Below are positions 12,909 through 16,808 of a stretch of 64,000 nt of DNA, piece by piece (the first letter of the stretch is position 1; every line of letters begins with the position of its first letter). A program made the position numbers and the translations under genes. The notes under the pieces are model-generated. The model was given only the letters and a program-made list of their open reading frames with translations. It ran no database searches and was not told where the DNA came from. Origin of the DNA: an uncultured Alphaproteobacteria bacterium (lineage in GTDB: Bacteria > Pseudomonadota > Alphaproteobacteria > Bin95); the NCBI GenBank assembly GCA_937891825.1, contig CALAHN010000089.1:118488-182487 (forward strand). The letters run 5' to 3'.

Positions 12909-13021
12909 ATTTCGCTGGAATAGTGAGGGTTCCCCTTGCGCTGCAGCGCAGATTGTCGTGGTATGGGAAAAATAAAAATGCAGGGGTGCAACGCTCCTCG
13001 TTGAACGAACAGGAGAGCGTG

Positions 13022-13762
13022 ATGGCGGAAGATATTGCGATACAAATGCGCAACGTCAACAAATGGTTCGGCAAGTTTCACGTTCTGAAGGATATCAATC
13101 TTCAGATTGGACGCGGCGAGCGGATCGTGGTTTGCGGCCCATCGGGTTCCGGCAAGTCGACTTTGGTGCGCTGCATCAATCGCCTGGAGGAACATCAGGA
13201 GGGCGATATTGTCGTCGATGGCGTCGAATTGACAAACGATCTGAAGAATATCGATCAGGTTCGTTCGGAAGTTGGCATGGTCTTCCAAAGCTTCAATCTG
13301 TTTCCGCATCTGAGCGTGCTTGAGAATTGCACGCTGGCGCCGATCTGGGTGCGCAAGCAGCCGAAGGCGGAAGCCGAAGCGGCGGCTATGAAATATCTGG
13401 AACGGGTGAAGATCCCGGAGCAGGCGATGAAATATCCTGGCCAGTTGTCTGGCGGCCAGCAGCAGCGCGTCGCGATCGCGCGCGCGCTTTGCATGAACCC
13501 CCGGATCATGCTGTTCGATGAACCGACAAGCGCCCTTGACCCGGAGATGATCAAGGAAGTGCTGGATGTGATGGTCGATCTTGCGGAAAGCGGCATGACC
13601 ATGGTGTGCGTGACCCATGAAATGGGCTTCGCCCGCCAGGTCGCGAACCGTGTGATCTTCATGGACGGCGGTCAGATCGTCGAAGAAAACGAGCCCGTCG
13701 CCTTCTTTGAAAACCCCCGCAACGAGCGGACGCAACTTTTCCTCTCGCAGATATTGCACTAG
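13022..13762 (+). CDS. Polar amino-acid ABC transporter ATP-binding protein (GlnQ/AapP-like)
   Basis: Walker [10 protein letters not shown], signature [15 protein letters not shown], Walker [15 protein letters not shown]; start trimmed to MAEDIAIQM. Confidence 0.95.
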
Positions 13763-13944: not shown

Positions 13945-14282
13945 GCGGACGTGGCGAAATCGGTAGACGCAGCAGACTTTAATTGGAGTGCCCGCAGGGA
14001 AATCTGCTGGGTAGAACCGCTCAAATTCGGGGAACGCTAAAGGCCCTGGAGCGCGGGCGGGCTCAGACGAGCACGCCGTTCTCCAGGATCCCAGGCCAAT
14101 CCCGAACCAAGCCCCAAGCGCGGGGAAGGTGTAGAGACTGGACGGGCGGCGCCTAAGGCGAAAGCTAGGGCGAAGGGACAGTCCAGACCACGAACGCCCA
14201 TTCGGGCGGCGGCGAAAGTCGAAGTGGTACGAAAATCTGTTTCTCTATGAGAGTGCGGGTTCGAGTCCCGCCGTCCGCACCA
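13945..14282 (+). tRNA. tRNA-Leu(UAA), split by a group I intron: exons 13945..13979 and 14232..14282 (86 nt spliced incl. encoded CCA)
   Basis: Acceptor GCGGACG/CGTCCGC (7 bp) + A + CCA; D arm GCG..CGC; anticodon stem GCAGA/TCTGT with loop C-T-T|A-A-A-A = UAA; class II variable arm TCTC/GAGA; T arm GCGGG-TTCGAGT-CCCGC. Confidence 0.95.
13980..14231 (+). ncRNA. Group I intron (252 nt, no ORF) inserted between U34 and A35 of tRNA-Leu(UAA)
   Basis: 5' splice after U (CUU^UAAUUG-GAG, U.G in P1), P4 TTCGGG 14026-14031/CCCGAA 14101-14106, P5-region CTGGAG/CTCCAG, P7 GACTG 14136-14140/CAGTC 14179-14183, CCAC/GTGG near 3' end, terminal G. Confidence 0.92.
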
Positions 14283-14297: not shown

Positions 14298-16808
14298 CTA
14301 CAGCACCGGCGCCGGCGAATAAGTTGCGATCCGTTCGGCCGCGGCCGCGCGGATAATCGACTCGATCGCCGGGTCGCGGGCCGACAGCTTCTGAAACGCC
14401 CGGCGGCGCAGCGCCAGAAGGCGGCAGAAGCCGAGCGAGGTGACATCGGCCGAACGCCTGCGGTGCGGATAGAGGAACGCCAACTCGCCGAAGAAGTCGC
14501 CGGTGCCGTAACTCACCGTCGTGTCGCCGACCACGGTCTCGAGTGCGCCCGATGCGACGAAATACATCGTGCCGCCACGCTCGCCCGCTTTCACGACCTG
14601 CTCGCCCGGCGTCGAAAATTCGGTGCGGAGGGCTTTGGCCAGGGACCGCTTCTGTTGCGGCGAGAGGGCGGCGAAGACCGGCACGCGATCCAGCAGCGCC
14701 GTCGGCGTCATGGTCAGGTCAAGCTTCGGCGGCTGGGCCGCCCGGCGCTCGCGCGCCTCGAGGCCGGCGATAAGGTCGTCATACAATTCCTGGCCGATGA
14801 CGCCGTCGCTCAACAGGCGGGCATATTGCTGCCGTTCGCGGCGGATGGCGGTGCGCGCGACAAGCGCCGTTTCGACCGACAGGGAATATTTCGGGTATTG
14901 GGTCGCAATCGCCTCGATCTCGCCATTGATCGCAACATGACGGTGCTGCATGACCTGCTTCAGGTTGTCGGCGGCATCCGTCCCGATCATCGGTTCGATG
15001 GAGCGGCCGACGAAGTCGACCAGGTCGCGAACGAACCGCTCGCTTTCCAGAAGCGTCGTGAAATGCAGCTCGATCGTCGCCCGAAGCGGCCAGTCGAGCC
15101 AGAGATAGCGCCGAAGCAGCACCGCGGCGCGAAACGGCTTCGACGGCCGGAGCGCCGTCATCGTCGCCGCGGCATAGCCTTCGCGGCCGTCCATGCGCGC
15201 AGCGTCGGCGATGCGGTCGGCGTTCAGGCGGAGCACGGCGGCGGCGCGGCGGCCGATGGCGCCGTCTTCCAGCGCGCGCCGGATCAAGCGGGCTTCCTGG
15301 CCGGCGGCGATTGCGAGACCGAGGCGCAGACGCTCGCCGAAGGGGATCCGTTCGCCGGCGGCCTGGGCTTCGGCCTCAGCCTCAACGGCCAGCTTCTGCT
15401 CGCCGAGCGCGGCTTCGACGGCGGCGAGGGCCTCCGGCTCCAGGTGTCGTTCCCGGGCAATGTTGCCGACGACGGTGCGGACACGCTCCAGCGAGCCGGC
15501 GATGATCTTTTCCCGGAGCGCCATGTCGGTCGCGGACAAGCTGTTCAACTTGAGCTTCCGGGTCAGCCAGGCCAGCGTCGACGCGTTCAGGAAAATCGTG
15601 AGCAGCGTATAGGTCGCGGCGATCGCGGCCAGCATGCGAGCGTCGCTGCCGAGCGCCGAAAGGTCCGCGATCGAGAGCGCCAGGACGAGCGTCACCGAAC
15701 CCCGGACGCCGCCCCAAAGCACCAGATAGCTTTGCTGGCGGGTCAGGGGCGCCGTCAGGCGGATGCGGGCGAGGGCGGGCGTGACGCCCAGCAGGATCAC
15801 CGCCCGCGCCGCCATGGCCGCCAGGTAGACCACCAATGTCGCCGGTACGATCATCCAATCCAGCGCGCCGATCAGGCCTGGCACGAGGCTCGTCGCGATG
15901 ATCATGATCAAGGCGTTCGCCCAGAACCCGATCTGGGTCCAGACCGTGCGGACCGTCTGCCAGTTTCCGGGGCCCATGCGCATGAAGCCGGTCCAGCCTG
16001 TCATCATGCCGGCGAACACGACTGCGACGACGCCGGAGCCGCCGAAGACCTGCTCAGCCGCGATGAAGGAGCCGTAAGCGACGATGACGGTGACCGAGGC
16101 CTCGGCGGCGCTTGAGCGCGACAGCAGCGGATAGATCTGGCCCGCGACCGCCGCGATCAACAGGCCGACGCCGGCGCCTGTGCCGAAGCTGTAAAGAAAA
16201 TCGTACAAAATCCGCAGGAAGGATGGCGTTATTTCATGGCGCATGACGCCCAGGAGCAATCCGAAAATTGCGATCGCCGCCGCGTCGTTCAGCAAGCTTT
16301 CGCCTTCCAGGATGACCAGAAGCCGGCGCGGGGCGCCCAGTTCGCGGAATGTCGAGATGACCGCGCCAGGGTCGGTCGTCGCGACGGCGCTGCCAAGCAA
16401 CAGGCAGGCTACGAAGGCGATCGGCGTCGCCGCCCAAAGCGCCACGCCGACCAACGCGGTCGCGGTCGCAACCGCCAGCACCGCCATCACCACGACAAGC
16501 GCCGTATCCTCCGCCAGCCGCCGGACATTGACCGATAACGTCATCTCGAACAGGAGCGGCGGGAGGAAGAGGTACAGCATCGACTGCGAGTTCAGCGCCA
16601 GTTGCTGCACGAACCATTGGTCATAGCTGTCGAGGACTCCGGAATGCACCTCTCCGCCCAGCACCGATGTGACTAAGCCGTAAGTCAGGCCAAGCGCGGC
16701 GAACAGCACGGCGACCGGCTGATGCAGCCAGCGCGCCAGGGGCACGGCCAGGGCGGCCACGCCCAAAAGCGCCAGCAGCAGCAGCAAGCCGACAATGACG
16801 ATGCTCAT
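14298..16808 (-). CDS. CPA1-type Na+(K+)/H+ antiporter with C-terminal cyclic-nucleotide-binding domain
   Basis: 836 aa; TM antiporter core (ESLLNDAAAIAIFGLLLG, LVLWGGVRGSVTLVLALS) and cNMP domain (VKAGERGGTMYFVASGALETVVGD...FFGELAFLYPHRRRSADVTS). Confidence 0.93.
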   Translation of the reverse strand: MSIVIVGLLLLLALLGVAALAVPLARWLHQPVAVLFAALGLTYGLVTSVLGGEVHSGVLDSYDQWFVQQLALNSQSMLYLFLPPLLFEMTLSVNVRRLAEDTALVVVMAVLAVATATALVGVALWAATPIAFVACLLLGSAVATTDPGAVISTFRELGAPRRLLVILEGESLLNDAAAIAIFGLLLGVMRHEITPSFLRILYDFLYSFGTGAGVGLLIAAVAGQIYPLLSRSSAAEASVTVIVAYGSFIAAEQVFGGSGVVAVVFAGMMTGWTGFMRMGPGNWQTVRTVWTQIGFWANALIMIIATSLVPGLIGALDWMIVPATLVVYLAAMAARAVILLGVTPALARIRLTAPLTRQQSYLVLWGGVRGSVTLVLALSIADLSALGSDARMLAAIAATYTLLTIFLNASTLAWLTRKLKLNSLSATDMALREKIIAGSLERVRTVVGNIARERHLEPEALAAVEAALGEQKLAVEAEAEAQAAGERIPFGERLRLGLAIAAGQEARLIRRALEDGAIGRRAAAVLRLNADRIADAARMDGREGYAAATMTALRPSKPFRAAVLLRRYLWLDWPLRATIELHFTTLLESERFVRDLVDFVGRSIEPMIGTDAADNLKQVMQHRHVAINGEIEAIATQYPKYSLSVETALVARTAIRRERQQYARLLSDGVIGQELYDDLIAGLEARERRAAQPPKLDLTMTPTALLDRVPVFAALSPQQKRSLAKALRTEFSTPGEQVVKAGERGGTMYFVASGALETVVGDTTVSYGTGDFFGELAFLYPHRRRSADVTSLGFCRLLALRRRAFQKLSARDPAIESIIRAAAAERIATYSPAPVL

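Follow-up and report, generated by a model that had tools for sequence, protein, structure and literature searches.

A tRNA-Leu(UAA) gene split by a group I intron in an alphaproteobacterial chromosome, with a homologue on resistance plasmids

The window, by which we mean the whole 64,000-nucleotide stretch of DNA analysed here, contains a tRNA-Leu(UAA) gene whose coding sequence is interrupted between U34 and A35 (Table 1). When the two exons (13945-13979 and 14232-14282) are joined, ARAGORN calls an 86-nt tRNA-Leu(taa) in which the 7-bp acceptor stem, the stem of the variable arm, the T arm, and the encoded CCA are all present. The initial annotation had proposed that the flanks at 13945-14282 form a complete tRNA and that a 252-nt insert begins after U34 and ends in G; sequence and coordinates are exactly as it gave them, and the observation is confirmed in every detail. 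The insert has no endonuclease reading frame (its longest stop-free stretch is 83 codons), and it is not a homing, endonuclease-encoding group I intron. Nor is it one of the tRNA-Arg(CCU) introns, its host being tRNA-Leu(UAA) and the genome's own tRNA-Arg(CCU) gene being intact. Scans of the locus for a promoter or a terminator found no candidate.

Table 1. Features of the split tRNA gene, of its intron, and of the loci compared with it
Feature	Position	Strand	Basis or remark
ABC transporter ATP-binding protein gene, synteny anchor upstream of the tRNA	12923-13762	+	87% identical protein in same-genus genome G001
5' exon of tRNA-Leu(UAA), ending in U34	13945-13979	+	Spliced sequence folds as tRNA-Leu(taa)
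P1, exon ACUU (13976-13979) with intron GAGU (13986-13989)	13976-13989	+	U34-G wobble at 5' splice site
Group I intron, 252 nt, terminal G	13980-14231	+	RF00028 match, conserved structure, reading frames
P2 hairpin, GGAAA-type loop	13991-14011	+	Both-side changes in 6/7 pairs
P3 (14017-14022 / 14144-14149), pseudoknotted with P7	14017-14149	+	99.5% of cells paired, 3/6 pairs covary
P4 (14027-14031 / 14101-14105) and P5 (14036-14037 / 14095-14096)	14027-14105	+	Alignment, pair counts
P6/P6a	14107-14129	+	Pair counts over alignment
P7 (14136-14140, GACUG / 14179-14183, CAGUC), expected guanosine-binding helix	14136-14183	+	100% paired
P8, enclosed by P7	14150-14153 / 14169-14172	+	A-U/G-C exchange in 15 rows
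P9.0 (14188-14189 / 14226-14227) and P9 hairpins	14188-14227	+	Consensus fold, pair counts
3' exon of tRNA-Leu(UAA), encoded CCA at 14280-14282	14232-14282	+	ARAGORN call on joined exons
Predicted exon junction of spliced tRNA-Leu(UAA)			...GACTT/AAAATCTG...
Plasmid homologue, 299 nt	pCTX-M3 NC_004464.2 61823-62121 (L113:5001-5299)		Beside tmrB and aac(3)-IId

Genes of this construction can be lost to standard tools, as the initial annotation had feared. Run plainly on the 64-kb window, ARAGORN reports no tRNA genes at all; in its intron mode the gene is detected, but with the splice site off by one base and the label tRNA-Phe, and that mode gives wrong anticodons because of the shifted splice site. 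Detection of such introns lies outside the design of tRNAscan-SE 2.0 (PMC8450103). For the relatives considered below, we therefore required a U before the intron, a G at its end, and a valid spliced tRNA; the top-scoring splice alternative was not always the right one, and the sites in tRNA-Leu(UAA) were fixed by the junction ACTT...G/AAAAT and then re-checked. The Rfam group I model called for as a check (RF00028) matches positions 13970-14206 over all 253 of its positions with an E value of 2.3e-8, though the score, 40.7 bits, falls below the curated gathering cut-off of 50 bits. It is the sole group I intron match in the 4.3-Mb assembly. A further Rfam match, P15 on the minus strand, has an E value of 0.14 and was set aside as chance.

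Further evidence for the fold comes from an alignment of 36 introns of related tRNA-Leu(UAA) genes, 35 of them distinct and used for pair counts, in all 36 of which the spliced exons are tRNA-Leu(taa). Free consensus folding recovered P1, P2, and P4-P9, and for 28 of its 59 pairs one row or more carries a compensated change. We also wrote the canonical group I structure, including the P3/P7 pseudoknot, onto the window and counted its pairs over the alignment: 98.3% of cells are paired, where shuffles give 90.5 ± 0.4% and slid structures no more than 45.1%; both sides have changed in 20 of 44 pairs (8.9 ± 1.4 in shuffles); and the covariation score is 0.238, compared with 0.096 in shuffles. The observed values were not equalled by any of 500 shuffles, whichever of these measures was taken, and a chance origin of the group I fold is excluded by the covariation. 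Three features by which group I introns are recognised are in place, namely the conserved core of P3, P4, P6, P7, and P8 with its P3/P7 pseudoknot; the U34-G wobble of P1 (columns 7/22), which is invariant in 35 of 35 distinct relatives; and the terminal G, at 14231 in the window, which is likewise invariant in the alignment. Covariation is seen in P2, P3, P5, P7, and P8, with clean exchanges such as A-U to G-C in P7, P8, P3, and P5; those in P7 are A-U/G-C and U-A/C-G. The window's own P2 includes one C-U mismatch. Its main difference from the relatives is some 40 extra nucleotides on P5, which in a minimum-energy fold form a hairpin of about that length near 14047-14084 that the relatives lack. 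The interpretation of the gene as a tRNA-Leu(UAA) with a group I intron is thus supported. By analogy, we take the window intron to be of the same small tRNA-type (IC3) architecture as the Azoarcus tRNA-Ile(CAU) intron.

Whether an intron of this sort occurs elsewhere in the lineage had been left as a question, and the answer is that it is sporadic across the class: 16 of 396 sampled genomes carry it in tRNA-Leu(UAA), RF00028 matches of any kind occur in 33 of the 396, and at least three further class genomes with the tRNA-Leu(UAA) intron, missed by Rfam, came to light in a DNA search. A search with the exact junction pattern gave 11 matches, of which 9 are real. The two removed (L022 and L029, from Plebeiobacterium and Prolixibacteraceae) are not tRNA genes; they look protein-coding and have no intron. 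The nine named genomes with a same-site homologue are assigned to Hyphomicrobiales, Beijerinckiaceae, Rhodobacteraceae, Rhodobacterales, Reyranella, Niveispirillum, Azospirillum, Allosphingosinicella, and one labelled Proteobacteria, so that Sphingomonadales and Azospirillaceae are among the groups represented. It is from such named loci that the hosts are taken to be alphaproteobacterial, and the window's own genome is assigned to the class by inference. Phylum-wide, 23 of the 24 genomes with strong matches belong to this same class. Related introns also reside in tRNA-Arg(CCU), tRNA-Lys (L099, L101, L177, L178, and L004), and tRNA-Thr (L109, L111, L179, L183, and L182), and once in tRNA-Leu(CAA) (L100), all these listed loci being in the same class. 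Two strong group I matches of 73-76 bits, L084 and L086 (G020:C438 and G208:C1), lie outside any recognisable tRNA. A scan of viral contigs with the exact intron pattern gave no match. Separately, the Gordonia phage Daredevil (NC_048021.1, approximately 41.9 kb) has a related, unannotated group I intron in a split tRNA-Lys(UUU)-like sequence (L116:2915-3146), with the integrase gene at a distance of about 0.6 kb; the intron may lie at the phage's attachment site.

Knowledge of group I introns in the tRNA genes of Alphaproteobacteria goes back to 1992 (cited in PMC4033280 and PMC7717549). The tRNA-Arg(CCU) introns of Agrobacterium and Bartonella (BbgpI; PMC7717549) come from the same bacterial class and, like the window intron, are small and unannotated; the Bartonella intron, placed by PMC7717549 in an alphaproteobacterial family of tRNA-Arg introns, both self-splices in vitro and is spliced in vivo. 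They share core sequence with the tRNA-Leu introns (84-146 bits in nhmmer with a Leu-intron profile), and differ from the window intron in their host tRNA and splice site. The Azoarcus tRNA-Ile(CAU) intron (Tanner and Cech 1996, cited in PMC4033280) sits in another tRNA of another bacterial class. The tRNA-Leu(UAA) intron of cyanobacteria and plastids has a group I fold and occupies the same U34/A35 site of the same tRNA, as checked on a plastid copy (L087); like it, the window intron would splice out of an anticodon loop. The two differ in setting, since the cyanobacterial intron is described as occurring in most cyanobacteria (Kaasalainen 2015, PMC4476775, citing earlier work), whereas the window intron belongs to an alphaproteobacterial chromosome and is sporadic. 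The plastid copy itself comes from a genome assigned to the same class (G090:C103:52536-52760); this tRNA-Leu(UAA) gene with its intron is plastid-like, is probably chloroplast contamination of the assembly, and served for comparison only.

These relationships bear on where the intron came from. It may have originated independently within the Alphaproteobacteria, transposed from a different tRNA (tRNA-Arg(CCU), for example), instead of descending from the cyanobacterial and plastid lineage, and we regard the case for this as evenly balanced. The alphaproteobacterial Leu, Lys, and Thr introns and most of the Arg introns stand together on the intron tree, apart from the single plastid intron; against this, L087 is the sole row of plastid or cyanobacterial type, it shares the insertion site, and its position is unreliable because it is a very long branch (3.03) of odd composition.

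How the intron reached the lineage of the window is a separate matter, on which the neighbourhood of the gene is informative. Among 14 genomes of the window's family, only this one has a group I intron. The same-genus genome G001 keeps the order PP2C-like gene, ABC ATPase gene, tRNA-Leu(UAA), and its tRNA gene, about 43 nt after the ABC gene and in the syntenic place, is intact. Gene order breaks directly 3' of the tRNA, where the window has an antiporter-like gene (14298-16808, minus strand; compare C121/C109 in G001) and G001 has a different gene (L129:1830-2873), an arrangement consistent with rearrangement beside the tRNA gene. The spliced tRNA of the window is 95.3% identical to one from Rhodobacteraceae and 81.6% identical to that of G001, and on the tree its intron groups with those of Rhodobacterales and Allosphingosinicella with support of 91/90; support in this tree is modest, and its bootstrap had not settled. 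The intact gene of G001 at this place suggests that the whole tRNA gene was replaced horizontally in the window lineage, which is also the simplest reading of these data. A comparable route is named for the cyanobacterial intron in the title of Rudi et al. 2002 (in Hausner et al. 2014, PMC3984707), where one means of spread is said to be that the entire tRNA locus recombines. Within this family, however, the gene varies anyway (roughly 18 of 87 positions are different between G001 and G002), and exons of the window's type are common in the class, so that the intron may instead have been retained, with many losses. Such retention would make the intron ancestral in the lineage's gene and lost from the other 13 family genomes, a course that gains from the same-site homologues in many families of the class and from the spread of the window's exon type among intact genes as well, but that we consider unlikely, since it calls for several losses, Rhodobacterales and Sphingomonadales hold the nearest introns, and the spliced tRNA is far closer to those of these two orders than to those of its congeners.

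An Rfam tRNA search of the assembly found 38 genes above the cut-off. A second, intact tRNA-Leu(UAA), named at the outset as a finding that would speak against the proposal, was looked for in the assembly and not found; the other leucine tRNAs read out as CAA, UAG, CAG, and GAG. The assembly is in 163 contigs, so that a second copy could lie in a gap, though this is unlikely at a completeness of 99.97% (the tool's figure). The window's 39 predicted genes use UUA 12 times in 16,718 codons. Since no other gene for a UAA isoacceptor was found, decoding of UUA would require splicing, and on these sequence grounds splicing of the window intron is probably essential and the gene very probably functional. 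That the intron is a dead remnant which no longer splices, UUA being read otherwise or by an unassembled tRNA copy, would accord with the Rfam score under the cut-off and the rarity of UUA in the window genes, but is highly improbable given that the core helices are all intact, the tRNA exons are perfect where mismatches would build up in a dead gene, and the assembly yields no other UAA tRNA.

The gene anatomy, the conserved fold, the uniqueness of the gene in its assembly, and its patchy distribution are best explained as a whole, with a probability that we place near 0.93, by a split tRNA-Leu(UAA) gene that would be processed by standard group I self-splicing and would owe its patchy spread to whole-gene replacement and losses. 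In the folded transcript, exon ACUU would pair with intron GAGU to form P1; a guanosine bound in P7 would attack after U34; and the freed U34 would then attack after the terminal G, joining the exons as the 86-nt tRNA and releasing the 252-nt intron. The distribution would follow if a tRNA gene with its intron had now and then been transferred horizontally as a whole, replacing the resident gene, and had later been lost again in places.

The same gene has a relative in a very different setting. Near-full-length homologues occur in 1260 plasmid records (Escherichia, Klebsiella, Salmonella, Acinetobacter, and other genera), many of which come from clinical bacteria, and 624 of the 5426 complete E. 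coli genomes have one as well; the best plasmid match is 78% identical over 99% of the whole window gene. The plasmid homologue is a complete tRNA-Leu(UAA) with a group I intron and the same exon and intron borders, and 35 of 35 bases of the window's 5' exon are the same in it and in several Rhodobacterales genes. It differs from the window gene in residing on mobile resistance plasmids (pCTX-M3 and others) and in having no extra P5 hairpin. In the plasmid records opened, it adjoins tmrB and aac(3)-IId; ISCfr1 and IS26 lie close by. It is unnamed in the annotations examined, being unannotated or, in an E. coli chromosome example, covered by a hypothetical-protein call, and the words tRNA and intron are absent from the literature examined on the aacC2-tmrB region. 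Its best chromosomal match is in a Rhodobacteraceae genome (L024; 92.4% over 301 bases). The plasmid flanks beyond the tRNA gene match none of the alphaproteobacterial loci compared, so that it is the tRNA gene alone that points to a donor; from it we infer that the resistance region probably carries a piece of Rhodobacterales-like chromosome. We give even odds to the broader proposition that the intron-bearing tRNA-Leu(UAA) moves as a unit, having replaced the native gene of the window lineage in one case and, in the other, having been captured as a Rhodobacterales copy with the aac(3)-IId/tmrB region.

Our literature search did not turn up a description of a tRNA-Leu(UAA) intron from Alphaproteobacteria; the most relevant work, Paquin 1999, lay outside its scope, and for that reason we do not claim first discovery. 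Introns of this kind are already known; what lifts the case above the routine is how the intron is distributed, together with the syntenic allele that lacks it and the homologue on plasmids. The pair of intron-plus and intron-minus loci in synteny within one genus makes gain versus loss testable. Annotation can overlook intron-split tRNA genes, and an isoacceptor may then be wrongly reported as absent. If the gene does move as a unit, approximately one complete E. coli genome in nine would harbour an extra, foreign tRNA together with a group I ribozyme that has gone unrecognised, and the presence of that tRNA may point to the lineage that donated the aac(3)-IId/tmrB resistance module. The plasmid homologue offers a possible fingerprint of origin for a widespread gentamicin-resistance region as well as a ribozyme easily studied in E. 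coli. For the class itself, the position between U34 and A35 of tRNA-Leu(UAA), the best-known site of a bacterial tRNA intron, is also occupied, sporadically, in the Alphaproteobacteria.
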